Assembly: GCF_013284055.1 (NCBI RefSeq)
Contig: NZ_CP054143.1
Coordinates: 2,666,001 to 2,730,000, forward strand
From: Deefgea piscis
GTDB taxonomy: Bacteria; Pseudomonadota; Gammaproteobacteria; Burkholderiales; Chitinibacteraceae
Length of the DNA stretch: 64,000 nucleotides
Direction of reading: 5' to 3'
How positions within the stretch are numbered: the first letter of the stretch is position 1; the number at the start of each line of letters is the position of its first letter. Below the pieces are notes generated by a model. It did not search any database and was not told the origin of the DNA. It saw nothing but the letters and a program-made list of their open reading frames with translations. A program made the position numbers and the translations under genes. Of the stretch, positions 2,003-39,937 are shown piece by piece.

Positions 2003-2059
2003 ATGCCATTAAAAAGCAAAAATATATTGCGAGTTGCTTCTTACAATATTCATAAGTAA
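2003..2059 (+). pseudogene. Severed 5' end of the ybhP-like EEP gene (host side of attL)
   Basis: A strong Shine-Dalgarno (GAGGAGG, 1989..1995) precedes an ATG at 2003. The 18 codons read MPLKSKNILRVASYNIHK and then a TAA at 2057. The peptide matches the start of the EEP-family protein that continues at 39164..39214 (KNIKNTLRIATYNIHKG). I infer this is the native start of that gene, cut off from its body by prophage integration in the YNIH codons. A TTGACA at 1973..1978 could be part of the native promoter. After integration the fragment can only make an 18-residue peptide. Confidence 0.8.
2042..2052 (+). other. Prophage attachment site attL (core TACAATATTCA)
   Basis: The 11-base TACAATATTCA is identical at 39200..39210. 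At both places it encodes Tyr-Asn-Ile-His of an EEP-family protein, and the flanking bases differ mostly at synonymous positions. Host coding sequence lies to its left and non-coding phage sequence to its right. The exact crossover bases cannot be fixed from one lysogen. Confidence 0.7.
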
Positions 2060-2067
2060 CGCAATTT

Positions 2068-2081
2068 TAAGTCTTTGATTT
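2068..2081 (+). repeat. 14-bp direct repeat flanking the att core, copy 1
   Basis: TAAGTCTTTGATTT occurs here, 15 bases to the phage side of attL, and again at 39089..39102 on the phage side of attR. Similarity extends loosely to a following AGG. In the excised circle the two would bracket the core, as integrase arm-type sites do. Confidence 0.6.
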
Positions 2082-2325
2082 AATAGGTTTTGTTTTTCGT
2101 TTTTCTAAATCCTCCGAAATAACTCCTAAATGGCATGGAAAAGATTTGATTGATGATTTTGAATCAAAGCCACCAATCGTAGCTTTCCTTGGTCCTTTCC
2201 GTTACACCATGTTGGTATGTCATCTAAGGCAGCAAGGCGCCCTTGCGTAAGTGTTTGCAAGAAAAAGTCGTATGCTTTAATGGCAGTACTTAAGCAATGC
2301 GTATTGGCATTGCTTATGTCGACAA
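2082..2325. other. Phage-end non-coding stretch with one hairpin
   Basis: No convincing gene is seen between attL and the KAP gene. The only structure is a perfect 10-bp inverted repeat, TAAGCAATGC / GCATTGCTTA with a six-base loop, at 2291..2316, ten bases past the stop of the minus-strand KAP gene. It lacks a T-run on either strand, so it may protect the mRNA 3' end rather than terminate. Confidence 0.5.
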
Positions 2326-3720
2326 CTATTTTAGTGATGATGACAATTCAACTAAATTTCGGTAGTCCTGAATATTCAATTCAATCTGATTGTCGTTCTT
2401 TTTTTTAGAGTAATTAGCAAGTTCTTTATATATCAATTCATTTTTTCTTTGATGTTGTAGCTGGAAATTTTCATTGAATCGTGGATGATTAATTCCTAAA
2501 TCATTTGTAGCATTAATTTTTTCCTCACAACTAAGCGCATCTGCAATTACGGTACGTGCAGATTCTTCGTTGATTTTTTTATTAATGAAAAAATCCAATG
2601 CTTGGATACTTTTCCCTCCTGTGTTGCCTATGCGAAGATCATAAATTTCTTTATGGTTTGAAAACTCAATTAATAATGAAACCAATGAAATAACATTGAT
2701 TGGATAGCCTTTGGGAGTTGTTTGTTTTTTAGCCCTTAAACAACTAGATAGCCTTGTAAAAAGCTGGTCCACATCTCGCAAAGTGAGTTCATAGACTATT
2801 GCAAGCTGCGTAATGGTTGTTTTCAGATTACTCGGATATAATTTGAAATGATTTGATGTTTCATTATTAATGACCTTCGAATTGATATAGTCGGTCATAC
2901 TTGGTGCGGGCAAACTTGCGATTCGATCAAAAAACCTTCTTAGGTATTTTTCTGAGTCGAAGCCATTCCCGTAAATTACCTTAATGGCATGTTTAATTTG
3001 CTCGGTATCTGTTGCCACAACAAACACAAAGCCAGGCACGTTAAAGAAATGTTTTATTGACTCCAAAAGCTCTACTGCATAACTTGGCCTGCAGCGATCA
3101 AGCTCGTCAACAAAAATAAATATTGGCAGCATGCATTTCGAATTGGTTTTTAAGGTTTCGCCAAGAGCTTCCAACTCATTTTTGATTGATTCAATTGCCG
3201 CAATTTGATCGTTGTAATCATTGGTAAGTGCATTTAAGAAATCTTTTGGCTCTTTGTCAAAAAGGTCTTTTGCAAGATCTTTGCCATCAGATGCTTCTCC
3301 GCCCAGTTTAGCTGCTAGCACCCCTGCTGCGTGAATAGCTGCGTGTTTTAAAAATTTCCCCAACACCCCTTTAACTTTGTCAAAATAATCACCAGAAACT
3401 TCATTGAGTTCAGATAGTTGAGTAACCAATTCGCTAGAAACAACTTGCAAGGGGGCATTACTAAAATCACTAATCCATGCATTAATATATACAGATGGGT
3501 TGCGCCGAGCCATCGCTTCTACATATAAACGCTTAAGCATTTCCGTTTTACCAGAGCCCCACTCAGAGTCAATATTCAGAACATAACCACCTTTTTCCTC
3601 AATTAAATAGTCAATGAGAAATTTCCCATATTCTTCTCGCTTGAGAAGGCATGAATCCCATTGGTGAGTGTCTTTCCAAGTTTTAAAATTTCCTGCCTTG
3701 TCGATCAGATCATTACCCAT
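2326..3720 (-). CDS. KAP-family P-loop NTPase
   Basis: The 464-residue protein has a Walker A (WGSGKT, residues 54-59) and a strong Walker B, PIFIFVDELDRCRP (199-212), followed by the KAP-type segment with FFNVPGFVFVVATDTEQI and the KYLRRFFDRI motif. KAP NTPases are STAND-related ATPases; several phage or plasmid members block superinfecting phages (for example PifA of F plasmid), which is known for the family but not shown here. The gene sits between attL and integrase, transcribed toward the phage end, with low GC relative to its neighbours. That position is typical of a moron, and exclusion or abortive infection is an inference. Confidence 0.85.
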   Translation of the reverse strand: MGNDLIDKAGNFKTWKDTHQWDSCLLKREEYGKFLIDYLIEEKGGYVLNIDSEWGSGKTEMLKRLYVEAMARRNPSVYINAWISDFSNAPLQVVSSELVTQLSELNEVSGDYFDKVKGVLGKFLKHAAIHAAGVLAAKLGGEASDGKDLAKDLFDKEPKDFLNALTNDYNDQIAAIESIKNELEALGETLKTNSKCMLPIFIFVDELDRCRPSYAVELLESIKHFFNVPGFVFVVATDTEQIKHAIKVIYGNGFDSEKYLRRFFDRIASLPAPSMTDYINSKVINNETSNHFKLYPSNLKTTITQLAIVYELTLRDVDQLFTRLSSCLRAKKQTTPKGYPINVISLVSLLIEFSNHKEIYDLRIGNTGGKSIQALDFFINKKINEESARTVIADALSCEEKINATNDLGINHPRFNENFQLQHQRKNELIYKELANYSKKKNDNQIELNIQDYRNLVELSSSLK

Positions 3721-3848
3721 AAAAGCAGACTCCGTTTGATTGATGTAAGAATCATATCGGAAACCATTCTGGCTTGTTGCTAAATCTGTCTTGGACAGTG
3801 TGGTTAGATGAAAAAGAATCGATCAATCAATTTTTCCGCATCCCAGCC

Positions 3849-4940
3849 TTAGATAGGCTCAACCACGACCCACTCTGAGCCGCGTGCGTCTAAGTACATG
3901 GCGCTGGTGTGGGCGGTTTTGTGGCCCCATAGGGCTTGGGCGAAGTCTTTGCCGTATTGCTTCTCGTACAGCCGACCTGACAGGCTGCGGATTTCGTGCA
4001 GTGTGGGTGGGTTTTCATCGATGATGCCTGCTGCTTCGCGTGCGTAAGTAAATGCGAGGCTGAGCGTGCGTAGGTTGATTTTTGAGCCGCTTGGAGCGTT
4101 GCCGACATTGCTTTCGTGGTGGATGAGTGATGTGGTGTCGTAGAGTTTGCGGCTCTCGTCAATGACGCGCCCGAGCGTGAAGCCGGGGAAGTCGTCCAGT
4201 GATAACTTGAGACTGAGCGCGACTGGGCTGCCCGTTTTGCTTTGCTTCACCCATAGTTTGCCGTCTTTAACATCGCTCAGGCTGAGCTTGGATAGGTCTT
4301 CGCGGCGTTGGCCCGATAGGATCGCCAGCATCAAGAGACGCGGTAGCCACGTCCAGCGGCATTCGGGGCTGATTGACCAAGCGTAAATGGCTTGGAATTG
4401 CTCGAGCGATAGGCGCGAGCGTTTGGTTTTGACGCCGTACACTTTGGTGATGTCGGCGGGGTTTTGCGTGATCCAGCCTGCGGCCATCGCTTCGCGAAAG
4501 CAATCAACAAGGCGGCTGCGAACGTGCTGCGCCATGCGCTTTTGATCTTTATCGACCCATGTTTGCAATAGATCGGCGACTTCCATGGTACTGATTTCGG
4601 CGATTTGGCGGCTGGCCCATGTGACTTTGGCCAGTGCCAGATAAGATTTGACGCTCGATAGGCTATTGGGGCGCAGGCCGCGATTGATCAAAATGGCGTC
4701 GTAGCGCTCTAGCCATGCGCCAAAGGTTTGATTGTGCTTGCCCGAAAGTCGGTCGATCAGCCTTGCGCTGGGTTGGGCGACATGGCTGTTGGCTTCGATG
4801 GCTTGACTGATGGCTTCGCGTTTATCGCGGCCTAAACCGTACTCGGTGCCAGTGCGTGGATCGCGCCAAGCGTAATATCCATCGCGGCAATACAGATTGA
4901 CGGGAAGGTGGCGATTAGCGAGTGAACGATTGCGGGCCAT
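3849..4940 (-). CDS. int: Lambda-type tyrosine integrase
   Basis: The 363-residue protein catalyses site-specific recombination between attP and attB. Its N-terminal ~55 residues (RHLPVNLYCRDGYYAWRDP, GLGRDKREAI) match the lambda Int arm-binding domain, residues ~70-165 form the core-binding domain, and the catalytic set R212, K235, H315, R318, H340 and nucleophile Y349 is complete. The excisionase-like gene ends eight bases upstream. The 128-bp gap to the KAP gene downstream holds no gene. Confidence 0.95.
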   Translation of the reverse strand: MARNRSLANRHLPVNLYCRDGYYAWRDPRTGTEYGLGRDKREAISQAIEANSHVAQPSARLIDRLSGKHNQTFGAWLERYDAILINRGLRPNSLSSVKSYLALAKVTWASRQIAEISTMEVADLLQTWVDKDQKRMAQHVRSRLVDCFREAMAAGWITQNPADITKVYGVKTKRSRLSLEQFQAIYAWSISPECRWTWLPRLLMLAILSGQRREDLSKLSLSDVKDGKLWVKQSKTGSPVALSLKLSLDDFPGFTLGRVIDESRKLYDTTSLIHHESNVGNAPSGSKINLRTLSLAFTYAREAAGIIDENPPTLHEIRSLSGRLYEKQYGKDFAQALWGHKTAHTSAMYLDARGSEWVVVEPI

Positions 4941-4948
4941 GATGTGCT

Positions 4949-5191
4949 TTATTGTGGAATGCGGTTAATGAGGCGATTGCCGCTGCGTATTGCTTTTGCA
5001 GCGGGTTCGCTGTGGTTTTGTGACGGTGGGCGATATTGCGCTTGCGGAATGACAAACCAAGTGCGGCCGATTTTAGTCGGTAGCGGCGTGATCCAGCCTT
5101 CTCGCGCCCAGCGTGTTAGCGTGTTGATCGTGGGGGCGTCGTCGCCAAATTCCGCGCGCGCCCAGTTTTGTAGAGTGGTTTGGCGAGCCAT
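4949..5191 (-). CDS. xis: Excisionase-like protein (lambda Xis family)
   Basis: An 80-residue basic protein directly upstream of int, preceded by GGGGAG eight bases before the ATG. The segment PTINTLTRWAREGWITPLPTKIGRTWFV is a winged-helix of the Xis type, which binds near attR, bends DNA and directs Int to excision. The order xis-int on the leftward transcript supports the call. A generic MerR-like phage regulator would be the alternative. Confidence 0.8.
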   Translation of the reverse strand: MARQTTLQNWARAEFGDDAPTINTLTRWAREGWITPLPTKIGRTWFVIPQAQYRPPSQNHSEPAAKAIRSGNRLINRIPQ

Positions 5192-5193
5192 CT

Positions 5194-5808
5194 TTAGTAT
5201 CTCCCCTTGTTACTAAATACGCGCCCAGTTGATTGAGGCTGGTGCATGTGGTGTTGGTAGCCGCCTTTGTCTTCGATTTCGTTCATGATCCCTAGGCGAC
5301 TGGGCTGGTAGCGGTCGTAATAGACGTAGGTTTTTGGTTCGTTCGCGGGGCTGATGGCGTGGTTGAATTTTGGTTTTAATACCGAGCCGTCGCCTTGTTT
5401 TACGCTGCTTTTTGCTGCGTTGGCGCGCTGTTTGGCGCTGGAATACGTAGCGACTTGGCGCTGGCTGTCGGTGTCGGGTTTAGTGCGTTTTGCACCACGG
5501 CCACGGCCTTGGTTTTCGAGCTGAAGGCGTTTGCTTTCGCTGATTTCGGGGGCGATAAACTCAGGGAATTCGCCTGTTTTGCGCCAAACGTGGCGTTTTT
5601 GAGTGCCTTCGCCAGTCGCTTTTACGAGCATGCCGTACTTGGCGGCGTTGGCGAAAAAGTTATTCGCTTGGGTGTATTCACTCGTCACGATGGCGTTGTG
5701 GTCAGTGGTGATGACCAATTCGCCGTCGATGCGGTCAAGTACCGATTGCACCCGTTTTGCACTGGTAATTGCTGCTGCAGGGTTGTTGGTTTTTAAATTG
5801 ATTTTCAT
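5194..5808 (-). CDS. Phage early protein of unknown function
   Basis: The 204-residue product is not recognised. I chose ATG 5808 rather than a longer frame because its ATGA overlaps the upstream gene's stop, as elsewhere in this operon. Residues ~1-95 look globular, with HNAIVTSEYTQANNFFANAAKYGMLVKATGEGTQKRHVW. The C-terminal half is basic, low-complexity and rich in Ser, Lys and Arg. The upstream half resembles small DNA-binding or modulator domains only in general composition. Confidence 0.7.
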   Translation of the reverse strand: MKINLKTNNPAAAITSAKRVQSVLDRIDGELVITTDHNAIVTSEYTQANNFFANAAKYGMLVKATGEGTQKRHVWRKTGEFPEFIAPEISESKRLQLENQGRGRGAKRTKPDTDSQRQVATYSSAKQRANAAKSSVKQGDGSVLKPKFNHAISPANEPKTYVYYDRYQPSRLGIMNEIEDKGGYQHHMHQPQSTGRVFSNKGRY

Positions 5809-6215
5809 GGTGCGATATCCAGCGGGTGGCGTGGCAGATGCATCCAATGCGTTGGGACTTCGCAGCATGGGTCGCCGTTGATGAAGTGCCACTGGCCGTC
5901 GAGGCGAAAGCCGCTCCAAACTTCGTTTTCACTGAGCGCCATGAGTACCGCGCATTCGTCGTCAGGGCCTTGTTCGGCGGTTTTAGTCCAGGCGCTACGT
6001 AGTTGATTTTTTAGCGATCTGATTCTGGCTAGGATTGCATCGTTGAATGTGGCCTCATCTGAGGCTATTCGACCAACTGTGCTTATCTCTATTTCAAGTT
6101 TGCCAATTCGATCTGCAGCTTCGCTGATTACGGAGTTTGCTACGCCATCGCCCGATTGAATTTCACAGGCCAATATGCGTAGCGCAGCGATGATAGTTGC
6201 ATTGCTTGAGCTCAT
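5805..6215 (-). CDS. Phage protein with a DUF551-like C-terminus
   Basis: A 136-residue protein. Residues 1-80 form a predicted helical, coiled-coil-like segment (GKLEIEISTVGRIASDEATFNDAILARIRSL quoted only in part here as EIEISTVGRI). The last 35 residues, GFRLDGQWHFI through THWMHLPRHP, look like the DUF551 module found in many phage early proteins, whose function is unknown. It overlaps both neighbours by four bases. Confidence 0.7.
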   Translation of the reverse strand: MSSSNATIIAALRILACEIQSGDGVANSVISEAADRIGKLEIEISTVGRIASDEATFNDAILARIRSLKNQLRSAWTKTAEQGPDDECAVLMALSENEVWSGFRLDGQWHFINGDPCCEVPTHWMHLPRHPLDIAP

Positions 6216-6409
6216 ATCTCACCGCCGTCGCTTTCTACGTCAGAGGTGTAGCGGGATGGCGGGGAGTCTTCTCGCTTTGTGATGAGTAGCTTTAGTTTTG
6301 TGCGGGTGGCGTTATCGTCGAGGGTATTGTCTGCGACGGAAAAGCGGCGGTCATTGTTGCCAATCGCCAGTGGATGTGCTTCGCCACTAAGAAAAATAAC
6401 TTCTTTCAT
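6212..6409 (-). CDS. 65-residue protein resembling a slice of the phage primase-helicase
   Basis: The start overlaps the stop of the dNMP kinase gene (ATGA) and its stop overlaps the next gene, so it is very likely translated. Residues 3-26 (VIFLSGEAHPLAIGNNDRRF) align with the primase encoded at 14750..17170 around its residues 597-620 (VVFLSNEAQPLVLERDDRRY), with about half the positions identical. It has no Walker motifs of its own. It may be a fragment of an ancestral DUF5906-type primase or a small protein built on its sensor motif. Confidence 0.7.
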   Translation of the reverse strand: MKEVIFLSGEAHPLAIGNNDRRFSVADNTLDDNATRTKLKLLITKREDSPPSRYTSDVESDGGEI

Positions 6410-7050
6410 GCTGCCTTCTCCCCAAAAATCGCCAGTGTCAATTTATCTGCGGCGTTTTCGATTAAGTGGTCGATGGTGCCGCTGTTGTTGATGTCGCAGT
6501 CGATCCAGCCTGATTTGATGCCTTGTTCGCTGGCGTGGTGGGTTACGGCGGTGAGATTGGGGCGTTGGATTTGCCATAGCCATGCGCCAAGTTGATTGAG
6601 TTGCTGGGCTTCGTTATCAAAGCGCACATCAGAGACCACGATGTGGCCGTCGATTTCGGCGATTTTGTTGGCGAGCTCGATTAAGAAATAGTCGGCGCCA
6701 AAGAGGGCGCGGCGGTAGTCGCCCCAGCGCTGCATAATCCAGCGCGGTGCACGCGGCATGCGCGCTTCGATTTCCCACTGCGAGCGATCATCACCCGCTA
6801 GCACGATCAAAATGTGTTGCAAGAAGCGGCTGTCTTGGCAGCCCGATATCGCGAGCGCGGTTTGAGGGATTTCTTTGGTGCTGCGCTCGGTGAGTAGCTC
6901 GGGCGCGATGCCCCAGGCAAAGCACACGTCGTCACGCAGTCGATCAGCGTAAGCAATTTTGGTGAATTTTTGCGTTACGAGGTAATCGGCAACGGTGTCT
7001 TTGCCTGCGCCTGCTTTGCCCGTAAGGCCAATGATGATTTGAGGTTTCAT
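6406..7050 (-). CDS. Phage deoxynucleoside monophosphate kinase
   Basis: The 214-residue protein starts with a P-loop, GLTGKAGAGKDTVADYL (residues 8-24), and continues with IAYADRLRDDVCFAWGI, QRWGDYRRALFGADYFL and VVSDVRFDNEAQQL, all typical of phage dNMP kinases that phosphorylate deoxynucleotides for phage DNA synthesis. It is overlapped by short genes on both sides. A broader adenylate-kinase-like NMP kinase is the only serious alternative. Confidence 0.85.
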   Translation of the reverse strand: MKPQIIIGLTGKAGAGKDTVADYLVTQKFTKIAYADRLRDDVCFAWGIAPELLTERSTKEIPQTALAISGCQDSRFLQHILIVLAGDDRSQWEIEARMPRAPRWIMQRWGDYRRALFGADYFLIELANKIAEIDGHIVVSDVRFDNEAQQLNQLGAWLWQIQRPNLTAVTHHASEQGIKSGWIDCDINNSGTIDHLIENAADKLTLAIFGEKAA

Positions 7051-7187
7051 GCTGCCACCTTGATGGTTTGGGTGGCTTGATAGCGATCACCCGTTTTGTG
7101 GGTAATGCGCCATCCGCGTAGCCGCCAAGTGCGCAAAACAAAATAGTCGTCAGTGCTGTCGATTAATTCAACTGTGAGCGTATGCAT
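7047..7187 (-). CDS. 46-residue phage protein
   Basis: The ATG at 7187 opens a frame ending in a TGA that overlaps the dNMP kinase ATG. The peptide begins MHTLTVELIDSTDDYFVLRT and is basic and rich in Trp, Arg and Thr, with alternating residues suggesting a small beta-sheet. Function is not recognised. The four-base coupling shared with the rest of the operon is the main evidence that it is real. Confidence 0.65.
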   Translation of the reverse strand: MHTLTVELIDSTDDYFVLRTWRLRGWRITHKTGDRYQATQTIKVAA

Positions 7188-7260
7188 GATGCTGTCCTTG
7201 TTTTGATTCACATCGCCAAGCCGTCTGTTAACAAACGGCTGGACGTTGGGAATGGGTGGA

Positions 7261-8166
7261 TTAGCGAGCGAAAGGATCGCCTGCGATGAGCGGGAAGCCG
7301 CTGTCGTTTTTGATTTGCGCGACGATGTCTTTGGCGGCGGCCTCTAGCACTTTGTCTTCGCGGACCAGTTCAAACCAAAGCACCAATTTGCCGTCTCGAA
7401 TGCGGTATTTCAGGCGGCAATCGATGCGGTAGGCAACGATTTCATCCGAAGCAGCAATCGGCTGTACAAAAACTGGAATGGCGATGGCGAAGCGCTCAAA
7501 CACTTTCATCTTGCTGCTAGTGACGGAGTCTTCTTGGTCGATGTATTCAAAGTTGATGCCGCCTGATTGCAGGCGCGCGGCGGATTTGAAGCGTTTTTCG
7601 TTGGTGGCTTCAAAGTTGAGCACCATTTCCATCATGTCGGTGGCGGTGGGTAGGCCGTCGATCAGGCAGATATTGGCGAGGTTGTCTTCGAGGAAGATGG
7701 CGAACTCGGTTTGGCTCATGACGTCGCAGTTGCGGCTTGTCCACTTTTTCCATTCCACCGAATTTGCCGGGGTGAATAGGGCTTTATGGTCGCGCCAGTT
7801 TTGCTCGGTGTAGCCGCTTTGGTGGTCGTTGATTAGCGCGGTGAAGTTAACTTTGCCTGCGGCGTAATCGGCTTGCAGATAAGTGCGGGTGCGGTGGGCT
7901 TCGCCGTGTTCTTTTAGGTACCAGACAAATGATTCGGCATCATCCAGGCGCACGGTGGCAGTTTTGCGTAGAGGGGTGTCTAGGTGTTTTTCAAAGTCGG
8001 GGTATTCGGCTTTGTAGCCATTTGGGATAAAGACTACAGGGCGATACCCTTCACGATAAGCGTCTAATTCAACGTTTTCTTGAAACGGCTTTTGGGCGGC
8101 TTTTAAGATTTGTGCAACAGAGCTGGGTTGGCTGACGAGTTCGGCTTCGATTTGTTCGACTGGCAT
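7261..8166 (-). CDS. DUF2303 family phage protein
   Basis: The 301-residue protein matches the DUF2303 family in length and pattern: a N-terminal VVFIPNGYKAEYPDFEKHL region, a central FTALINDHQSGYTEQNWRDH motif, and C-terminal EIVAYRIDCRLKYRIRDGKL. The family is found in early regions of many proteobacterial phages and its role is unknown; a ssDNA or recombination role has been suggested only from context. It is preceded by the 8181..8564 gene with a 14-base gap. Confidence 0.85.
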   Translation of the reverse strand: MPVEQIEAELVSQPSSVAQILKAAQKPFQENVELDAYREGYRPVVFIPNGYKAEYPDFEKHLDTPLRKTATVRLDDAESFVWYLKEHGEAHRTRTYLQADYAAGKVNFTALINDHQSGYTEQNWRDHKALFTPANSVEWKKWTSRNCDVMSQTEFAIFLEDNLANICLIDGLPTATDMMEMVLNFEATNEKRFKSAARLQSGGINFEYIDQEDSVTSSKMKVFERFAIAIPVFVQPIAASDEIVAYRIDCRLKYRIRDGKLVLWFELVREDKVLEAAAKDIVAQIKNDSGFPLIAGDPFAR

Positions 8167-8180
8167 GGTTTTTCCTTGGG

Positions 8181-8564: not shown

Positions 8565-8641
8565 CCAAAAAAGCGCAGCGGGGAGGTTTGATTACTGGCT
8601 GAACACCCACATCAGCACCGCTGCGCTGGGGTGATGTGGTA

Positions 8642-8690: not shown

Positions 8691-8697
8691 CATAATG

Positions 8698-8725: not shown

Positions 8726-8743
8726 GTGTTGGTTGTTTCTTTA

Positions 8744-10531
8744 CTATTCGATTTCTTCGCTAAGTTCTTCTAGTGGAGTGAGCGTCTCTAGCTTTAAAAG
8801 TCGTGCGAGATGCTGATTACGCTCTTCTTGGTTCATGTGTTTGATAGCTTGCGTTTCGCGGTATTCATGTGCGGCCGCGGTCAGAGTGAAGTGAGGCGCT
8901 TCTTTTAGTAAATCACCTCCAGTAAGTTCTGTGATGCTGCTTTTGATTTGTTGTAAATCGACGCAGAAAAACTCCTTACGGAAATTCACCATATTCATTC
9001 GCTGCAGGTTGAAACGGCGATGTAGCTCACGCTCAAGACCAGGGGCGTCGTCGCTATACATCATGGCATGAACATCAAAAGTAAACGGAACGGATGCATC
9101 ACCTAGTTCTTTAACGCGGTCCATTGGCTCGAGTCGACGGGTCATGCCGATTTTGAAAACGGTTTCGCCAAATGAACCAATATTTGAAATGACATAAACG
9201 TGTCCAGCACGGGTTTGTTGTGCCATCGAGAGTGCGCGTTGATTTTTAGCTTCTGCCTCGGTGAGTTTTTCTTGTAGCTCTGCCAATTTAAGTTCGAATT
9301 CTGTGCGTTGTTCATCGGTGGCCTTGGCAATTTGCGCTGCTGTTTTTTCCATGGCCTTGCGAATATTTTCTTCTTCTTTGGCTGCATCTTTAATTGCGCG
9401 CTCATATTCGCGACGGGCTTTTTCTTCTTCGCGGATTTGTTCTTTGATTTGGCGCTGTTCTTCACGCTCTTGATCGCGCAATGCTACTACTGTGGCGGCT
9501 AATTTAAGTTCTTGTAATCGAGACTCTAGGTAGGCAGGTGTAATTCGGGCGTCTCTGAATGCTTTGCCTAGATGATTCACCAGACTATATGCGTCATGAA
9601 TTTGTTGCTCTAGTTTCCCGATGTTTTCTGCTTTGATGGTGGCTAAAATTGAATCTACTTTGCCGTTAAATGCATCGGTTACGAATGCTATTGCGGTTTG
9701 GCTTCGATTGACTTCGACATAGTCACACAGGGCAGCCTTGCCCGTCTCGGTGAGTAATTTACTGTTTTTTCTGGCTGCGGTTAGCTGCAATCCTGCGTCA
9801 GTATGGCTAAATCCATCAGCTAAATCATCAAGTAGGCTTTGTGTGGGTTTGAGGTATTTGATGCCGTAGCCTTTTATTACATTTTCCATAGCGGTGACTG
9901 TGGCTTGGATTTCTTTGCTTCGCTCTAGTGCTGTATAAGCATCGCCAGCGATGCTTGTCGCGTTGTTTTGCGCTCTTAGTGTGATTTCTGCTGCTTGGTT
10001 ATTGGCAGCGTTAAGCGCTTGATCTGCTTTGTTGCGAAGTTCGGCTGCGTTAGTTCTAGCTGTTTTTAGTATTTGTTCTGCGTTTTCTTTTGCCGAATTG
10101 GCTATGGTTTCTGATTCGGTACGCGCACTGTTAAGTAGTGCGTTTGCCTTGTTTCTAAGTTCTGTAGCTTTGATGTTTGCATTTTGAATAGTGCTTTCTG
10201 CTGCTGATTTAGCGCTATTTTCAATGTTTTGTGCATGTGTTTTGTTTCTGTCGATGATTGCTTGCGATTCAGTTATTTTCTTTTTTATTTCTTCGTCGAT
10301 GTCAGCGATGGATTGGTATTTACTAAGTTTCTCGATATTTGACTTTAGGTCATCATTCTCTGCGTTTAGTATTTTATTTTTTGATTCAGCTTCTTTGATA
10401 GCTAGTTCTTGTATCGACTTTAATTCTTCTTCTCTTAATTTGGCGAGTTTGATGTTTGTTTGATGGGATTTTTTTTCTTTAATGTATAGAAAAAGTAAAA
10501 CAATAAGTGGGATTAATAATAAAGGTTCCAT
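8744..10531 (-). CDS. Membrane-anchored coiled-coil protein with T5orf172 (GIY-YIG-like) nuclease domain
   Basis: The 595-residue protein starts with a transmembrane helix (LLLIPLIVLLFLYI, residues 4-17). Alanine-rich coiled coil with repeats such as KATELRNKANALLNSARTE and NAAELRNKADQALNAANNQ follows (~20-220), then a DUF4041-like segment (~220-330) and another charged coil to ~440. A C-terminal GHVYVISNIGSFGETVFKIGMT module (~450-535) is of the T5orf172/MUG113 type, related to GIY-YIG nucleases. Terminators on both sides make it a self-contained transcription unit inside the early region, typical of a lysogenically expressed moron. Phage defence or exclusion is an inference. Confidence 0.85.
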   Translation of the reverse strand: MEPLLLIPLIVLLFLYIKEKKSHQTNIKLAKLREEELKSIQELAIKEAESKNKILNAENDDLKSNIEKLSKYQSIADIDEEIKKKITESQAIIDRNKTHAQNIENSAKSAAESTIQNANIKATELRNKANALLNSARTESETIANSAKENAEQILKTARTNAAELRNKADQALNAANNQAAEITLRAQNNATSIAGDAYTALERSKEIQATVTAMENVIKGYGIKYLKPTQSLLDDLADGFSHTDAGLQLTAARKNSKLLTETGKAALCDYVEVNRSQTAIAFVTDAFNGKVDSILATIKAENIGKLEQQIHDAYSLVNHLGKAFRDARITPAYLESRLQELKLAATVVALRDQEREEQRQIKEQIREEEKARREYERAIKDAAKEEENIRKAMEKTAAQIAKATDEQRTEFELKLAELQEKLTEAEAKNQRALSMAQQTRAGHVYVISNIGSFGETVFKIGMTRRLEPMDRVKELGDASVPFTFDVHAMMYSDDAPGLERELHRRFNLQRMNMVNFRKEFFCVDLQQIKSSITELTGGDLLKEAPHFTLTAAAHEYRETQAIKHMNQEERNQHLARLLKLETLTPLEELSEEIE

Positions 10532-33241: not shown

Positions 33242-34140
33242 GTTTAAAAATTGTACAGCCGATCAATCTTAGTGATGCCGCGTTAAGCAGCAGCTCAGTA
33301 CCGGAAAATGACTATCCGGTATGGGCTGCTGCCACTGCGTATATCGTCGGGCAGCGGGTGATCCGCACACAAACGCATCGGATTTATGAGCGTGTGGCCG
33401 CGGGTACCACCGCTGCTTTGCCCGAGGTGGACAAGCTCAATTGGATTGATGTTGGGCCGACTAATCGCTGGGCGATGTTTGATCAAGTCAACAGCACTAA
33501 AACTGTCAAGGCGGGGTCGATTGTGGTTGAAATCACCCCCGCCAAGGTCGTCAACACGGTGGCGCTGCTCAATGTCGAAGCCGAAACCGTACTGATTGAG
33601 TTGATTGATCTGGTCGATGGCCTGGTATATAGCCGCCAAATCCAAATGCTGGATAACGGCATTGTAACCAGCTGGTGGCAGTGGTGTTTTGCCCCCATTA
33701 AGCGCAAAAGCATGGTGATCTTAACCGACTTGCCTGCCTATGGTACCGCCAAAATTCGGCTGACCATTACCAATTCGGCAGGCAATGTCACGCTGGGTAC
33801 TGCGATTGTCGGTGCGCAAGTTGAATTTGGTGAGGGCATCGAAATGGGCGCCAAAGCTGGCATTCAGGATTTCTCGCGCAAAGAGCGCGATCAGTGGGGC
33901 AATTTTGTGCTGACCGAGCGCAATTTTGCCAAGCGCGGTGTCTGGCAAATGAAGGTACTCAATACCCAAATCGACGGCCTAATGGACTATTTATCCACGC
34001 TACGCGCCAAGCCGTGTTTATGGATCGGTGCCGAACAATATAACGCCACGGTGATTTATGGCTTTTTTAAGGAGTTCGATATTGTGATCGCCTACGCCAA
34101 TTTAAGTGAATGCAATTTAGAAATTGAGGGGTTAACTTAA
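33238..34140 (+). CDS. Tail tip protein with carbohydrate-binding-like segment
   Basis: The 300-residue protein contains VWAAATAYIVGQRVIRTQTH, reminiscent of the CBM5/12 chitin-binding motif, at residues ~28-50. Further strands include ARNWIDV-like and VLLNVEAETVLIELIDLVDG. A FNKSMG-like motif is not seen. It follows the tape measure, so a distal tail or tip role is inferred. The carbohydrate-binding guess is weak. Confidence 0.6.
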   Translation: MSLKIVQPINLSDAALSSSSVPENDYPVWAAATAYIVGQRVIRTQTHRIYERVAAGTTAALPEVDKLNWIDVGPTNRWAMFDQVNSTKTVKAGSIVVEITPAKVVNTVALLNVEAETVLIELIDLVDGLVYSRQIQMLDNGIVTSWWQWCFAPIKRKSMVILTDLPAYGTAKIRLTITNSAGNVTLGTAIVGAQVEFGEGIEMGAKAGIQDFSRKERDQWGNFVLTERNFAKRGVWQMKVLNTQIDGLMDYLSTLRAKPCLWIGAEQYNATVIYGFFKEFDIVIAYANLSECNLEIEGLT

Positions 34141-34727
34141 TGCCAGTTCCTGTTATTCCCGCTTTACCTCCAGCACCTTCGCGTGCCGATTCGGGCTCGG
34201 TGTTTGCAGAAAAAGCCGACGCCCATGTTGCCGCATTGGCTGGGTGGACCGCTAAAGCCAATGATCTGGGTGCTTACATCAACGCCGCAGGCGAGCAGGT
34301 CGCCACCGATGCCGCAGCGGTCGCAGCGCAAACTGATGCCGTGCAGTCTGCTGCCGCGCAAGCCAGTGCCGCCGCCGCTGCCGCGCAAGCCGCCGCTGGT
34401 TTACCGCCCACGGCGCAATTTGGTCAAGTCATCCACACCGAAGGGCAGACGAATATCATCAACGCCAGCGTGCAGCTGCAAACGGGCCGCGCGTATGAGT
34501 GCGACACCTCAGCCGCCGCTTTTAGCGTTCCCTTGCCGCTAAATCCAAATGTCGGTGACTTTGTTTGGCTGAATGATCATTTAGGTACGTTCGCAAAAAA
34601 CAATTTAACTGTTTTGCGTAATGGCAAAAAAATCCAAGGCAAAAGCGAGGATTACATCATGGATCTGAATTACTTAAATAATCAGCTGACCTATATCAGC
34701 GCCAGCCACGGATGGGCGATTAAATGA
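34140..34727 (+). CDS. Tail fibre-like protein with Ala-rich coil
   Basis: The 195-residue protein has a Pro-rich N-terminus, then a long Ala-rich coil (VATDAAAVAAQTDAVQSAAA), the kind that trimerises fibre shafts. A beta-rich end follows (NIINASVQLQTGRAYECDTS, YLNNQLTYISASHGWAI). It starts as TAATG with the previous stop and overlaps the next gene by ATGA. Confidence 0.7.
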   Translation: MPVPVIPALPPAPSRADSGSVFAEKADAHVAALAGWTAKANDLGAYINAAGEQVATDAAAVAAQTDAVQSAAAQASAAAAAAQAAAGLPPTAQFGQVIHTEGQTNIINASVQLQTGRAYECDTSAAAFSVPLPLNPNVGDFVWLNDHLGTFAKNNLTVLRNGKKIQGKSEDYIMDLNYLNNQLTYISASHGWAIK

Positions 34728-35584
34728 GAGCTAGCGCACTATTTGGATCGGGCGGCACGCCCCGTGCATGCGGGCAATTGCCGCCATTTGGTAGCGGCCA
34801 ATTCATGGTGTTTTTCAAAACCACACCATTCGTTATCCCTGCTGGCGTTTCGTCGGTTCGAGTCCGTGTTTTTGGTGCGGGTGGCGGCTCGATTGTTGGT
34901 GGCGCTGGCGGTGGTGGCGGTGGTTTCGCGATGGGCGTATTCGATGTGGTCGAGGGTGCAAGCCACACCGCGACGGTCGGGCTTGGTGTAGTGAGCGGCA
35001 CAGGCGGCACATCCAGCTTTGGTGCGCTGATTTCTGCAACTGGCGGCACGGCGGGTACGGCGACGGTTGGCGGTACGGGTGGCGTGGGTATCGGCGGCGA
35101 TTTTAGAGCCAATGGCGGTAAGGCTGGTAACGCAAACGGTTCAGGCGGTGGTGGTGCAGGCTCGCAATTAGGGCGTGGCGGCAATACCGGTAATGGCGTT
35201 TGCGGCGGCGGCGGTGTTTCGCCAATGGGTGATGTGGCGGCGGGGGTAAGTACTGGCGGCTCTGCGTTTGGTGGTACAGATGCACACGGTAATTACAATA
35301 CTAGCAGCCCAACAATCAGTAATCTATATAACGCACCGGCTGTAAATTCAGGGTTTTTGGGTGATTTTTTAGGTGGTGGTGGTGGCAATGGCAATCAAGT
35401 AACGGGTGGTATTGGTGGTGGTGGCAGCGGCGGTATTGGCGGCTATACGCAAGGCGGATTAGGTGGCGCCTTTGGCGGTGGCGGTGGTGGCTCAGTTAAT
35501 GGCTCTGCTGGTGGCATAGCCGGTGGCTGTGGCGGAAATTTTCCGTCCAAGGGCGGCGAAGGCCTAATTGTTGTGGAGTGGTGA
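34724..35584 (+). CDS. Glycine-rich receptor-binding adhesin candidate
   Basis: The 286-residue protein starts with a beta domain (FKTTPFVIPAGVSSVRVRVF) then many runs of Gly (GGAGGGGGGFAMGVF, DFLGGGGGNGNQVTGGIGGG). T-even gp38-type adhesins use glycine-rich motifs as a polyglycine sandwich to display receptor loops, so a host-recognition role is plausible. It ends with GEGLIVVEW, a motif seen in similar phage proteins. Its place at the tail-tip end of the operon supports that role. Confidence 0.7.
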   Translation: MRASALFGSGGTPRACGQLPPFGSGQFMVFFKTTPFVIPAGVSSVRVRVFGAGGGSIVGGAGGGGGGFAMGVFDVVEGASHTATVGLGVVSGTGGTSSFGALISATGGTAGTATVGGTGGVGIGGDFRANGGKAGNANGSGGGGAGSQLGRGGNTGNGVCGGGGVSPMGDVAAGVSTGGSAFGGTDAHGNYNTSSPTISNLYNAPAVNSGFLGDFLGGGGGNGNQVTGGIGGGGSGGIGGYTQGGLGGAFGGGGGGSVNGSAGGIAGGCGGNFPSKGGEGLIVVEW

Positions 35585-35586
35585 GC

Positions 35587-36042
35587 ATGAAAGCACTAAT
35601 CGAAAATAACGCTGTTGTCGCGGCATCAAATAATCCAGACCAAGACTTTCACCCGATTCTGGCTGCTCAATTTGTCGTGGTACCTGAGTTTGTTCAGCAG
35701 GGTTGGCGGCAGATCAATGGTCAATGGTCTGAGCCGCTGGTAAACGTATTGACGTGGGATAACGCCAGTCGAGCGTATTTCCACATCGACATTGGTGCGT
35801 TTTACGACCGATTCGGTAGTCGTAAATTAGGCATTCTGTCGAGCACTGATCCGCTGGTCATGGCTGTGGTACGTGACACTAGTGTGCGCCAGTACATCGA
35901 TCTTAAAAACCCTGACGTATCAGCAGGCGTAAATGCCTTGGTTTCAGTTGGCTTGTTAAATGAAGAGCAGGCCTCGGCGGTCATGAATTTAACAACCCAA
36001 GACAACGAGCGTTTTGTTAAGGGCTTGCCACAGCCTGAGTAG
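35587..36042 (+). CDS. Tail fibre assembly-like protein
   Basis: The 151-residue protein follows the adhesin directly. It begins MKALIENNAVVAASNNPDQD, has VPEFVQQGWRQINGQWSEP and ends with a helical segment. Many phages carry an adhesin-specific chaperone or fibre assembly protein in this slot; homology is not certain. Confidence 0.55.
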   Translation: MKALIENNAVVAASNNPDQDFHPILAAQFVVVPEFVQQGWRQINGQWSEPLVNVLTWDNASRAYFHIDIGAFYDRFGSRKLGILSSTDPLVMAVVRDTSVRQYIDLKNPDVSAGVNALVSVGLLNEEQASAVMNLTTQDNERFVKGLPQPE

Positions 36043-36063
36043 TTGCCATTGCAAAATCAATAG

Positions 36064-36090
36064 CCCGCCAAACTAATGGCGGGTTTTTTT
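36064..36090 (+). terminator. Intrinsic terminator before the lysis genes
   Basis: CCCGCCA-AACTAA-TGGCGGG followed by seven T. Confidence 0.85.
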
Positions 36091-36113
36091 ACGCCCTTCA
36101 AAAAGGAATCGGC

Positions 36114-36431
36114 ATGCAAGAAGAATTGAAATCGTTTTGGGAAACCCTAGCGCTACTGTTCGTTGTTGGCGCCATTGTGCCGATTGCTCGGGCACTCGCC
36201 AGTGCCGCACCGGACAACTGGCGCATGGTGCTGGGGCGTGCGGTGCTTAACGGCATTTTGAGTGTGTCGGCGCTGGTGGTGTTGTTGTGGTTTTCGCCGC
36301 CATCGCTGGCATTAGTCGGTGTGGCGTGTGCCCTGGGTACGCTGGGCCAGTCGGGCGTCGAGCATTGGGCGCGTTTATTTAGCGAAAAGCGCGGCTGGAT
36401 TAAATCAAGCACCGACGATGCAGCTCAGTAA
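36114..36431 (+). CDS. Holin
   Basis: The 105-residue protein has three hydrophobic stretches (LALLFVVGAIVPIARALA; VLNGILSVSALVVLLWF; LALVGVACALGTLG) and a charged C-terminus, the layout of class I phage holins. It opens the lysis cassette directly upstream of an endolysin gene, after GAAGAATTGAA. It would permeabilise the inner membrane at the end of infection. Confidence 0.8.
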   Translation: MQEELKSFWETLALLFVVGAIVPIARALASAAPDNWRMVLGRAVLNGILSVSALVVLLWFSPPSLALVGVACALGTLGQSGVEHWARLFSEKRGWIKSSTDDAAQ

Positions 36432-36441
36432 AGGAAAAATC

Positions 36442-36876
36442 ATGTCTAGTCGTGAACTTAAAGATTTACACGCAAGTATTCGCACGCTGGCAGCGAAATT
36501 TGTGGCTGAAGCCAATGCCACTTTGCAGCAGCAAAATCCAGCGCTCGAGGTACGTTTGACTTGCACTTGGCGGCCACAGTCTGAGCAAAACGCTTTGTAC
36601 GCACAGGGCAGAACTAAGCCTGGGCCAAAGGTGACGTGGGTGACGCAAAGCGCGCATAACACCGATTTACCCGACACGCCCGATGGTGATGCTGAGGCGC
36701 TCGATGTGGGCGTGTTTGAAAACGGCAAATACTTGCAAGGCAACACCGCGCGTGAGTTGGGCTTTTACCTGCGGCTCGGGCCAATTGGTGAGCGCTATGG
36801 TCTGGTATGGGGTGGGCGCTGGCAAACGCCTGATTACCCGCATTATGAGCGTAAAGAATGGCGGACTGCTAAATAA
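36442..36876 (+). CDS. M15-family L-Ala-D-Glu endopeptidase endolysin
   Basis: ATG 36442 follows AAAGGAAA; 144 residues. Visible zinc ligands of the VanY/M15 fold are His in VTQSAHNTDLPD, Asp in GDAEALDVGVF and His in DYPHYERKEW. TWRPQSEQNALYAQGRTKPG is the usual N-terminal motif. There is no signal peptide, so it depends on the holin. Like T5 endolysin it would cut peptide cross-bridges. Confidence 0.92.
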   Translation: MSSRELKDLHASIRTLAAKFVAEANATLQQQNPALEVRLTCTWRPQSEQNALYAQGRTKPGPKVTWVTQSAHNTDLPDTPDGDAEALDVGVFENGKYLQGNTARELGFYLRLGPIGERYGLVWGGRWQTPDYPHYERKEWRTAK

Positions 36877-36969
36877 TCCACAGCAGCGGTGGGTAAGCCC
36901 AGTAAATCCAAGCCAAAAAGCTTGGGTTTCTGGGCTTTGCACTGTGTTGCACAAAAAGGTATCGAACGA

Positions 36970-37503
36970 ATGTTCAATTTAATTCCTGAAAAATACCGAC
37001 TTCTAGCCCTAGGGCTATTGCTGCTGTTTTTCTTTGCCGGTGGTTTGCGACTGGGTTGGGTGCTATCGGCTAACAGTAAAGATGCGGCAGAGCTAAAAAC
37101 CGTAACAAAGGTAGCAATCAAGACGGACAAAAAACAGGCGTCAGCAACTAAAGCGGCGGTGGCCAACGCCAGCGCTATCGAGCAAACGCGAGTCATTTAC
37201 AAAACAATCACTAAAGAGGTGGTGAAATATGCGCAATCTAAAAATGCGGCCGATTCGAGTAAAACAATGGCTAGTGGTGTGTGCGATCAGCGTTTGGATG
37301 CTGAGTGGGTGCGCATCCACGACCTTGCTGCACGTCCCGACATCGCCGCCAGCGCACCTAATGAATTATCCGAGCCAGTTGGAAAAGCTGACGCCCTCGG
37401 CGTCATCGCCAGAAACTACGAAACTTGTCAGCAATGGCGAAACGAGATAATCGGCTGGCAAAGTTGGTGGTCAAGTCAAACAGAGCCGCAATCTGGCAAT
37501 TAA
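36970..37503 (+). CDS. Rz-like inner-membrane spanin (i-spanin)
   Basis: The 177-residue protein has an N-terminal transmembrane helix (YRLLALGLLLLFFFAGGLRL, residues ~9-28) and a helical periplasmic domain. It follows the endolysin gene and contains a second gene in another frame. Together with Rz1 it disrupts the outer membrane in the last step of lysis. Confidence 0.85.
   Translation: MFNLIPEKYRLLALGLLLLFFFAGGLRLGWVLSANSKDAAELKTVTKVAIKTDKKQASATKAAVANASAIEQTRVIYKTITKEVVKYAQSKNAADSSKTMASGVCDQRLDAEWVRIHDLAARPDIAASAPNELSEPVGKADALGVIARNYETCQQWRNEIIGWQSWWSSQTEPQSGN
37229..37450 (+). CDS. Embedded Rz1-like outer-membrane lipoprotein (o-spanin)
   Basis: The frame lies wholly inside Rz, in the +1 frame. 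It encodes a 73-residue product, or 68 from ATG 37244. A signal sequence (KQWLVVCAISVWMLSGC) ends in a lipobox LSGC, and the mature part is short and Pro/Ser-rich. Nested Rz1 genes of this type are well known. Confidence 0.88.
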   Translation: MRNLKMRPIRVKQWLVVCAISVWMLSGCASTTLLHVPTSPPAHLMNYPSQLEKLTPSASSPETTKLVSNGETR

Positions 37504-37527
37504 CCGTACAAGTTACGGTTTTATTTT
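37502..37527 (+). terminator. Terminator after the spanin genes
   Basis: AACCGTA-CAAGT-TACGGTT followed by TTATTTT. Confidence 0.75.
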
Positions 37528-37580
37528 ACATAAAGGTGGCGTGTATTACTGCGCCGCTGTAATTAGACAAAGGGTTTGAT

Positions 37581-38879
37581 ATGACTCAAAAGCTCACCGC
37601 CGCGCAAACTCGCGCGATTACGTTTTGGAATAATCTCGAAAAGTACCCCTTAATCGGCGATGTGGCCACAGCGTTGGGTGTATCACGTCAGGCGCTGGAA
37701 GCGATTCGTTTACGCATTCGCGCCGTTGACCCCAAGGCTTTAATTGATCGACCGCGTGTGGCGCCACAAAAAAAGCTTGAAGCGGTGAATGATCCAATAG
37801 CACCGGTTGCGCCGGCTGCACCGATTGTGCCGGGTGCGACGGTTGATGCGGAAGTGCGCACGCTGCGCGCCCAAATCAAAGCCATGCAGACCGAAACGCT
37901 CGACGCCGATTTTATCAAGCGGCAAATCGTCAAGCTGGCTGAAACCAGTATCGAGCCGCCGAACTGGCTAGTGAATGCGCCGCAAGAAGAAGGCTCTTTG
38001 GGTGTGCCGACGCTATTCGCGAGTGATTGGCACTGGGCAGAAGTCGTTGATCCCCGCCAGATTAACGGCTGCAACGAATACAACCTCGAGATCGCCCATC
38101 GCCGCGCTAAAGCGCTGATCGATAAAACCATTGGCCTGCTGCGTAACGAGTTCACGCGGCCTTGTCATCAGGGTATTGTCTTCGCGCTCGGTGGTGATAT
38201 GGTCTCTGGCGATATACATGATGAATTAATGGCAACCAATCAATGCGAAATCATGCCGACGGTCATCGATCTGCTAGAGATTTTAGCCTGGTGCATTAAA
38301 ACGCTAGCCGATGAATTCGGCGCGGTCTTTGTGCCGTGTGTGTCCGGCAACCATGGGCGCAATACGCATAAAATTCGCGCCAAAGGGCGCAACTTCACCA
38401 GCTTTGACTGGCTGACGTATGTGATGCTCAGCAAGCTATTCGAGAACGATAGCCGCGTGACGTTCCTGATCCCTGACGGCCCCGATGCGTATTACCGCGT
38501 ATTTGGTACCCGTTACCTGCTGACGCACGGCGATCAATTTCGTGGCGGCGACGGCATGATCGGCGCACTCGGGCCAATCTTGCGCGGCGATCATAAAAAG
38601 CGCGGCCGTAACGGACAAATCGATATGAGCTACGACGTGATGCTGCTCGGTCACTGGCATCAATATATCCACCACCAGCGCGTGATCGTGAATGGTTCGC
38701 TCAAAGGTTACGATGAATACGCCTTCGCGAATAACTTCGGCTTTGAGCGTGCGCGGCAAGCTTTGTGGCTGACGCACCCAAAACACGGCATTACATTCCC
38801 ATTCGCAGTCAACGTTGACGACAACCAAGGCGAAATCGTTACCGACTGGGTGAGCGTGCCAGACGCACAAGCGGCATAG
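37581..38879 (+). CDS. Phage calcineurin-like metallophosphoesterase with N-terminal HTH
   Basis: The 432-residue protein begins with an HTH-like segment (PLIGDVATALGVSRQALEAI) and an Ala/Pro linker. A metallophosphatase core follows (~145-420) with all motifs: SDWHWAEV, GGDMVSGDIHDE, GNHGRN, THGDQFRGGDG and GHWHQY. Such proteins may act on nucleic acids or nucleotides; the substrate is unknown. It lies downstream of the lysis genes and their terminator. Confidence 0.88.
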   Translation: MTQKLTAAQTRAITFWNNLEKYPLIGDVATALGVSRQALEAIRLRIRAVDPKALIDRPRVAPQKKLEAVNDPIAPVAPAAPIVPGATVDAEVRTLRAQIKAMQTETLDADFIKRQIVKLAETSIEPPNWLVNAPQEEGSLGVPTLFASDWHWAEVVDPRQINGCNEYNLEIAHRRAKALIDKTIGLLRNEFTRPCHQGIVFALGGDMVSGDIHDELMATNQCEIMPTVIDLLEILAWCIKTLADEFGAVFVPCVSGNHGRNTHKIRAKGRNFTSFDWLTYVMLSKLFENDSRVTFLIPDGPDAYYRVFGTRYLLTHGDQFRGGDGMIGALGPILRGDHKKRGRNGQIDMSYDVMLLGHWHQYIHHQRVIVNGSLKGYDEYAFANNFGFERARQALWLTHPKHGITFPFAVNVDDNQGEIVTDWVSVPDAQAA

Positions 38880-38881
38880 CG

Positions 38882-39037
38882 ATGTCAGAAACCGAAGCTG
38901 AAGCGCTCGATATTCGCCTGGGCGAATTGATTGCTCTTGATCTAAAAGGCGAACTAAAAGACCTCGAAGAGCTGATCCAATGCGCGAGTGATTGGCATCA
39001 GTTTTGGCGGGGGATATTGGATATATACCAAAAATAG
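38882..39037 (+). CDS. 51-residue acidic phage protein
   Basis: The ATG starts two bases after the phosphoesterase stop. The product begins MSETEAEALDIRLGELIALD and continues as an acidic amphipathic helix (LKGELKDLEELIQCASDWHQ). It is probably co-translated. No family recognised. Confidence 0.65.
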   Translation: MSETEAEALDIRLGELIALDLKGELKDLEELIQCASDWHQFWRGILDIYQK

Positions 39038-39088
39038 TGATGGTGGGTTGGTGGATAATATAGGCTAAAATCATCCTAAATCGACTGC

Positions 39089-39102
39089 TAAGTCTTTGAT
39101 TT
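39089..39102 (+). repeat. 14-bp direct repeat flanking the att core, copy 2
   Basis: TAAGTCTTTGATTT, identical to 2068..2081. It lies 97 bases to the phage side of attR. Confidence 0.6.
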
Positions 39103-39118
39103 TATTAGGCCGCTTTTG

Positions 39119-39937
39119 ATGGTTTTAGTCTGTAAAAATCACCCTAAAAACATAGGTAAGTGCTTGAAAAATATAAAAAATACACTGCGTATTGCTACAT
39201 ACAATATTCACAAAGGCATGTCACCGCTCAACCAGAATTTTGTACTGCATGGCGTGCGTCACGCCTTAAAAGCACTCGATCCAGATATTGTTTTTTTGCA
39301 GGAAGTACAGGGCCTGCACCATGATTTAGCTAAGAAAATCCATACTTGGCCGCGGGATGCACAGCATGTGTATTTGGCTGGCGATGCGCTGTTTTCTGCT
39401 TACGGTAGTAATGCCCATTATTTACTTGGGCATCACGGTAATGCTTTGTTGTCGCGGTTTCCAATTTTGCATCGCAGTAATCACGACTTAACTTTGCACC
39501 GGTTTGAGCAACGCGGTTTATTGTATTGTCAGCTGGATTTACCGCATTGGACACAGTCTTTGCATGCTTTTTGTGTGCATTTGAATTTACGCGCCTCGGA
39601 TCGGCGTAAGCAATTGCAACTGATGATTCGTGCCATTGCTGAGCAAGTGCCTGCAGATGCGCCGCTGGTGCTGGCGGGGGATTTTAACGATTGGCGCGGT
39701 GAAGTCAGCGAAGTGTTGCAATCTGAATTGGGCATGGATGAAGTTTTTCAGTCTTTGCACGGCGCGCATGCGCGTAGTTTTCCTGCCAGAATGCCGTTTT
39801 TTTCATTAGATCGTATTTATACCCGTGGTTTTACCATTGAATCGGCCGAGGTGTTGCAAGGCGCGCCTTGGCGCAGTTTGTCGGACCACGCGCCTTTATT
39901 GGCTACATTATCTTTGGCAGGTGCTCAAAAGGCATGA
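39119..39937 (+). CDS. YbhP-like EEP-family phosphodiesterase, chimeric across attR
   Basis: The 272-residue protein has the endonuclease/exonuclease/phosphatase motifs RIATYNIHKG, DIVFLQEV, GNALLSRFP, LAGDFNDW, LDRIYT and SDHAPL. The first ~30 codons come from the phage side of attR; the rest is host. ATG 39119 lacks a good Shine-Dalgarno. TTG 39164, after AGGTAAG, gives MKNIKNTLRIATYNIHKG, very like the severed host start, and may be the true one. As in enteric ybhP-clsB pairs it overlaps clsB (ATGA). A membrane-lipid role is inferred from context. Confidence 0.85.
   Translation: MVLVCKNHPKNIGKCLKNIKNTLRIATYNIHKGMSPLNQNFVLHGVRHALKALDPDIVFLQEVQGLHHDLAKKIHTWPRDAQHVYLAGDALFSAYGSNAHYLLGHHGNALLSRFPILHRSNHDLTLHRFEQRGLLYCQLDLPHWTQSLHAFCVHLNLRASDRRKQLQLMIRAIAEQVPADAPLVLAGDFNDWRGEVSEVLQSELGMDEVFQSLHGAHARSFPARMPFFSLDRIYTRGFTIESAEVLQGAPWRSLSDHAPLLATLSLAGAQKA
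39200..39210 (+). other. Prophage attachment site attR (core TACAATATTCA)
   Basis: Second copy of the 11-base core, inside the YNIH codons of the EEP gene. Host coding sequence continues to its right. Confidence 0.7.

Follow-up and report, generated by a model that had tools for sequence, protein, structure and literature searches.

How a temperate phage can lie within the probable active-site codons of a conserved protein gene and still leave that gene readable is the question raised by a 64,000-nucleotide stretch of Deefgea piscis DNA (contig NZ_CP054143.1, positions 2,666,001 to 2,730,000; hereafter, the window). A ybhP-like gene was split there by a prophage of 37,158 base pairs (bp) at 2042–39199. 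The core sequence TACAATATTCA was present twice, in attL at 2042–2052 and in attR at 39200–39210, with a spacing of 37,158 bp. The left piece of the gene, at 2003–2059 on the forward strand, comprises the native start and 18 codons, reads MPLKSKNILRVASYNIHK, and is terminated by a stop from the phage side. The body of the gene (39200–39937, forward strand; Pfam Exo_endo_phos) is back in frame on the right of the prophage as ...LRIATYNIHKGMSPLN..., preceded by the residues KNTLRIAT. Between the two pieces are genes for a lambda/HK022-type integrase, repressor, primase, terminase, portal, capsid, tail, tape measure, and a spanin-like protein; by this content the element would be a temperate siphovirus-like phage. 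We consider it very probable that the phage inserts via an overlap in the YNIHKG motif and rebuilds ybhP with a start carried on attP, and that this leader may outlive the prophage. A lambda-Int-type recombinase would insert the phage into a 7-bp overlap encoding Asn-Ile of YNIHKG, whose conservation among hosts presumably reflects a need of the protein. In attP, a substitute ybhP start made of two arm-type repeats, a start codon, and 8–12 native-like codons would lie to one side of the core. Integration would then strand the old start in attL and rebuild the gene at attR, so that the enzyme and the overlapping clsB would still be translatable. When the prophage decays, the phage-supplied leader may stay as the only 5′ end of the gene.

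The two flanks of the prophage were found joined in relatives. Window positions 1–2055 and 39176–41094 are contiguous in two genomes of the same genus (G001 and G002) with 88–93% identity; the prophage is absent from both, and one intact ybhP encodes MPLKSKNILRVASYNIHKGMSPLN. Because both flanks are contiguous around one intact gene, the split did not arise by chance. The initial annotation, which was made from the letters of the window, had placed a prophage inside a ybhP-like gene and had predicted an uninterrupted gene starting MPLKSKNILRVASYNIHKGM. Both gene pieces and both copies of the core were recovered as it described, and the predicted gene is carried by the two relatives. A search with the left flank (window 1218–2060) reported no separate 18-codon fragment in these two genomes, and the arrangement that would have spoken against the annotation, a prophage-free relative holding both the fragment and the full gene, was not encountered in them. 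A chance resemblance or an assembly join would be exceedingly improbable, since the empty sites match both flanks, which rules out such an origin, and an identical arrangement was met again in further genera as well as in another family.

The crossover was located by comparing attL and attR in the four complete elements, of which three are described below. The identity extended over 11 bp in the window, 10 bp in G048, 8 bp in G317, and 17 bp in G473, and the intersection of these four blocks is 7 bp, AA(C/T)(A/C)T(T/C/G)C, spanning the codons for Asn and Ile/Leu plus one base of the His codon. This length would fit the 7-bp overlap used by lambda Int. The PF03372 match of the ybhP body begins at the core, and Y, N, H, K, and G of YNIHKG were invariant among 17 aligned homologues. 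Judging from its family match and motif, the ybhP-like protein belongs to the endonuclease/exonuclease/phosphatase (EEP) family with an N-terminal Asn motif. We take the Asn of YNIHKG to be the catalytic metal-site Asn of the EEP superfamily; an alignment of TDP2 at this residue was very weak. The crossover probably falls in the codons of this probable catalytic residue, which is consistent with the proposed integration via the Asn codon. A ybhP homologue was detected in 40 of the 41 genomes searched, the window's own genome included.

The same insertion was identified with both junctions in three further genera (G048, G317, and G473), where ybhP is split in the same codons as in the window, and half-junctions were found in L137 and G848. 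This gives four complete elements and two halves in total. A search of 43 genomes of the family gave a close relative of the integrase in G048, a Formivibrio metagenome-assembled genome (Chitinibacteraceae), in which a NUDIX-like gene and the stranded native MDRRLRIASYNI are followed by approximately 38.5 kilobases (kb) and by the mimic MDKRLRIASYNIHKG on the body. Its congener G024 has an uninterrupted ybhP. G317 was among the 4 of 399 genomes of the order with an integrase match at an E-value of 1e-40 or better (the others were the window's own genome, G111, and G353); its stranded MKPLHVTTYNIH and its body with MNPLKVTTYNIHKG are separated by 37.7 kb. G473 was one of three matching genomes among the 61 of the family of G317, together with G317 and the more distant G468. 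It shows a stranded MHAIHVLTYNLH and a body with MNSISVLTYNLHKG at a separation of about 43.7 kb, and has Leu in both the host and phage copies where the other elements have Ile. As for the halves, the viral contig L137 presents an endolysin gene, then a mimic leader, and then the ybhP body, and the phage record G848 contains the stranded fragment MKSITICTYNI along with a related clade integrase in the same record.

Other searches for the site gave few additions. A scan of genome contigs matched the Formivibrio genome only, and the one match of a class-wide integrase search (1 of 369 at an E-value of 1e-60) was the genome of the window itself. Among 42 viral loci with related integrases, L097 alone, which corresponds to the G473 phage already described, had a ybhP fragment in the flank retrieved; L095 and L098 match the phages of the window and G317, respectively, and both end before the junction. 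No ybhP body was found in 14 viral records, a negative of little weight because the records are incomplete. G468 was rejected as a further case, as its integrase is more distant (5e-84) and its ybhP lies on another contig and has no repeats. Three drafts with more distant integrases (G010, G111, and G353) were likewise set aside; in each, the 1.5-kb flanks lack a ybhP fragment and the gene itself is on another contig.

The presumed integrase of the ybhP site is encoded at 3849–4940 on the reverse strand. It matched PF09003 (Arm-DNA-bind_1), PF22022 (Phage_int_M), and PF00589 (Phage_integrase) above the cut-off, corresponding to the arm-binding, core-binding, and catalytic domains, and shared 41% identity over 99% with HK022 Int. 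This domain composition points to a tyrosine recombinase of the lambda-Int type. A tree of 19 chosen rows contained a clade of eight integrases with a support of 100/99, consisting of those of the window, G048, G317, G473, G848, G844, G847, and G849. Five of them (window, G048, G317, G473, and G848) are accompanied by a ybhP junction, and none of the eight was seen at a different site. No ybhP junction was found in the whole records of G844 and G849 or in two 20-kb stretches of the 42.4 kb of G847.

The initial annotation had further held that phage DNA restores the 5′ end of the gene, which agrees with the in-frame start and N-terminus found at attR. The most likely new start in the window is the TTG at 39164, preceded by AGG at 39154; from this TTG the phage-supplied coding end (MKNIKNTLRIAT) would run over 39164–39199 on the forward strand; an in-frame ATG at 39119, with no evident Shine-Dalgarno sequence, is a possible alternative. 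The mimic was compared with the stranded native sequence over the eight codons before the core, and p-values were obtained by random placement of the differences. The G048 mimic differs at 11 of 24 bases and only one of eight residues (p 0.00005), that of G317 at 8 of 24 bases and two of eight residues (p 0.005), and that of G473 at 8 of 24 bases and three of eight residues (p 0.057). Protein-level conservation of the mimic is clear in G048 and G317 and borderline in G473.

The leader preceding these codons has a regular layout. Two repeats of the form TAAGTnnTTGATTT were found in 5/5 elements with a visible phage leader, namely, the four lysogens and L137. They start 111–109 and 43–42 bp before the core, with a mutual spacing of 67–68 bp, and the start codon is located inside the second repeat or up to 4 bases past its end. 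In the window, repeat 1 is at 39089–39102, 111 bp before the core, and repeat 2, which contains the proposed TTG start, is at 39157–39170, 43 bp before it (both on the forward strand). The second repeat is often imperfect. These repeats were chosen by eye; a matrix was constructed from the ten sites in five elements, and the limits on position and spacing were derived from the same five, whose leave-one-out scores were 28.9 to 39.1. A further repeat, TAAGTCTTTGATTT, is located on the P′ side of the window core at 2068–2081 (forward strand), and the exact 14-mer occurs in the window prophage at both ends only. A P′-side repeat is clear in G848 as well. The layout is that expected of Int arm sites, and the repeats are regarded as putative sites that Int may bind. 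The ybhP phages resemble lambda and HK022 in the Arm-DNA-bind_1 and catalytic domains, the shared 7-bp block, and the putative arm-type repeats that flank the window core on both sides. They differ in that a protein gene is the target and its 5′ end is restored, whereas lambda attB is intergenic.

The same repeat pair was detected in front of ybhP genes with no prophage found beside them. The matrix was run on the 150 bp upstream of ybhP in 96 genomes (83 + 13), which do not include the five elements of the model; the 13 loci had initially been dropped by a motif filter and, when rescored, were all negative (best −1.6). A score of at least 20 was obtained for ten of the 96 (G454, G441, G053, G156, G051, G019, G450, G013, G057, and G443), which belong to six genera, while the top of 8300 shuffles was 19.6. 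Leaders below 20 were not counted (G014 with 16.7, G229 with 15.8, G023, G445, G010, G058, G018, and lower ones). A seeded scan was also run on the remaining DNA that had been fetched, without the 96 loci (2.46 million bases counting both strands, from partly redundant loci). It gave 16 pairs of at least 20 at nine distinct places, every one at a ybhP junction. The DNA upstream of the ten leaders, up to 40 kb and shorter at contig ends (1.4 kb for G053, 11 kb for G450, and 27 kb for G443), contained no match to four clade integrases; no search was made for prophages with integrases of other kinds. The longer open reading frames nearest the ten leaders were inspected by eye. In G019, the first repeat is preceded, at a distance of about 90 bp, by the end of a seemingly complete endolysin gene (phrog_315, 2e-59), and the endolysin gene near the L137 leader belongs to the same families. 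This gene of G019 (L149 19270–19770) is a lone GH108 endolysin gene, and the 40 kb read there contained no integrase of the clade. Reading frames ahead of ybhP suspected to be of phage origin in G010 and G013 gave no PHROG match.

These ten leaders may be fossil attR sites, left behind after the loss of their phage. They could instead be the native form of a host regulatory element of ybhP that phages have copied and the ten genomes simply keep. Such an origin would account for the presence of the pair in 10 genomes with no found prophage versus six elements, and for its sharing with congeners by several of the ten. The leader of G005, a genome with no integrase of the window type, also resembles the TTG leader of the phage (0 of 1000 shuffles as good). 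Against a host origin, attL too has the repeat on its phage side, a place with no ybhP; its distribution is patchy within a genus, being present in G156 and absent from the congeners G288, G398, G429, and G430; 86 of the 96 genomes score below 20; and a phage endolysin gene adjoins the repeats in G019. We regard a host element as rather unlikely. G005 itself was not counted as a same-site insertion because its leader lacks the repeat pair (score −5.9), and a gene cluster of approximately 29.5 kb occupies its narJ–ybhP gap. This cluster (C12 21726–51280) appeared by eye to be of the polysaccharide type.

A further trace was obtained from G848, whose repeat pair is composed of the second repeat of the host leader and the P′-side repeat. 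The host leader stranded there (L143 9060–9215) is also a repeat-type leader, similar to those of G441 and G450, so it is probable that a later clade phage entered a site rewritten by an earlier one, that is, that integrations were stacked. Taken with the fossil interpretation of the ten leaders, such traces in other bacteria suggest that phage-made 5′ ends can outlast their phage.

Several observations weigh against the proposed rebuilding of ybhP by an attP-borne start. The G048 phage is reversed relative to the core, with its integrase on the ybhP-body side, whereas the integrase is on the fragment side in the window, G317, and G473; the orientation of attP appears to have been flipped within the clade. 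The five ybhP integrases do not by themselves form a group set apart by a single branch (3 changes; as few in 29 of 500 shuffles), because the three with no att site in view lie among them. The window mimic differs at 6 of 24 bases and three of eight residues, for which protein conservation is not significant (p 0.36). Arm-like sequences placed similarly to the window's P′-side repeat are weak in G048, G317, and G473, and the second repeat of the window (14.6) is equalled in score by three stray matches within the prophage (14.1–15.5), so this repeat is credible by position and not by score. Among the ten leaders, G443 is marginal (20.1) because the shuffle maximum reaches 19.6. The rebuilt gene begins with TTG, a weaker start than the native ATG, and no promoter site stands out in the window leader when scanned against shuffles. 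The number of shuffles equalling the leader, per 300, was 139 for the window, 17 for G048, 53 for L137, 68 for G317, and 297 for G473. Neither excision, a circular form, nor expression was seen.

The absence of a promoter-like site beating shuffles, the weak TTG, and the overlap of the arm repeats with the start region, where bound Int could block initiation, would all be expected if integration acted as an off switch. The reading frame would then be kept and the native promoter cut off, so that ybhP–clsB would be silent or low in lysogens and restored on excision, as described for the mutL island of Streptococcus pyogenes (PMC3430984). We consider a switch of this kind a minor possibility, slightly ahead of the host element. 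In G048 and G317, the protein sequence of the mimic codons is conserved, a constraint not expected of silent genes, and no stop interrupts the ybhP frame in any of the four lysogens or of the ten genomes with the repeat pair. The promoter scan does not discriminate, since native leaders score no better than the phage leaders. Expression of the rebuilt gene from phage signals is hence put forward conditionally, and the phage-supplied promoter that the initial annotation had proposed for ybhP–clsB is likewise putative. That annotation also called the restoration of a 5′ end unusual, which was too strong given the precedents at dusA, prfC, and mutL; its site, its 5′ restoration, and its empty site held.

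Elements that replace the 5′ end of their target gene have been published for dusA (PMC4482086, PMC8409611). The dusA-specific integrases, prophages, and islands occur in over 200 bacteria (PMC4482086, PMC8409611) and supply a new 5′ sequence, a replacement beta strand, and putative promoters (PMC4482086), and for one element a new promoter and N-terminus were demonstrated by lacZ fusions (PMC8409611). In the 2015 paper, the affected residues are not known cofactor or tRNA binders (PMC4482086). The ybhP phages are similar in that a tyrosine recombinase acts at the 5′ end of a conserved protein gene and a new 5′ coding end is supplied. They differ in the target, which here is ybhP and not dusA, and in the integrase, which is of the lambda/HK022 Int type, whereas the dusA enzymes are described as distinct from phage integrases and Rci-related. 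The crossover in codons of a probable catalytic residue, the two arm-type repeats forming the leader, and the possible fossil leaders also distinguish the ybhP case, which is known from sequence, in contrast to the promoter shown with lacZ. SXT likewise gives prfC a new promoter and N-terminus, as cited in PMC8409611, but it is a conjugative element in another gene. The SpyCI islands, phage-like elements that target the 5′ end of mutL, include one island that has decayed and rescues the gene by means of an internal promoter (PMC3430984), which parallels the fossil leaders proposed here; they differ as a growth-dependent switch in another host group and another gene. With such precedents published, ybhP is a new target and a variant of 5′-end restoration, not a new kind. 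No evident earlier report of the ybhP site was found in the literature searched, where subscription journals are mostly missing.

A broader interpretation, which we find quite possible if somewhat less than probable, is that one phage lineage has, during a long period, repeatedly rewritten the leader and N-terminus of ybhP. The att arm would serve as both the 5′ untranslated region and the start, bound Int could tune ybhP–clsB, the leaders would have become native in six genera once the prophages were lost, and the G848 phage would be stacked on an old leader. In any case, ybhP is a new recurrent protein-gene target for lambda-type integrases, located on codons that the host probably cannot change. 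The series of empty site, lysogen, stacked lysogen, and possible fossil offers a natural means of tracing what becomes of a gene start that a phage has supplied. Should the fossil interpretation prove right, host genes would obtain new leaders and starts from prophages.

The surroundings of the split gene are as follows. The native left neighbour of ybhP is a narJ-like gene (nitrate reductase delta; 1218–1850, forward strand; Pfam Nitrate_red_del), which is the same neighbour in G001 and G002. It is followed at 1872–1904 (forward strand) by a perfect 15-bp inverted repeat, a probable terminator that the terminator scan does not list. On the right, a clsB-like gene with a PLD domain (39934–41094, forward strand; Pfam PLDc_2) is joined to ybhP by an ATGA overlap at 39934–39937. 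A gene for a KAP-family P-loop NTPase at 2326–3720 on the reverse strand sits between attL and the integrase gene, and matched Pfam KAP_NTPase and PADLOC PDC-S20, with PifA weaker; it is likely an accessory, defence, or phage-exclusion gene. Another phage gene, at 8744–10531 on the reverse strand, matched PADLOC PD-Lambda-1 models (3e-113) and PHROG 1847, where its function is unassigned.

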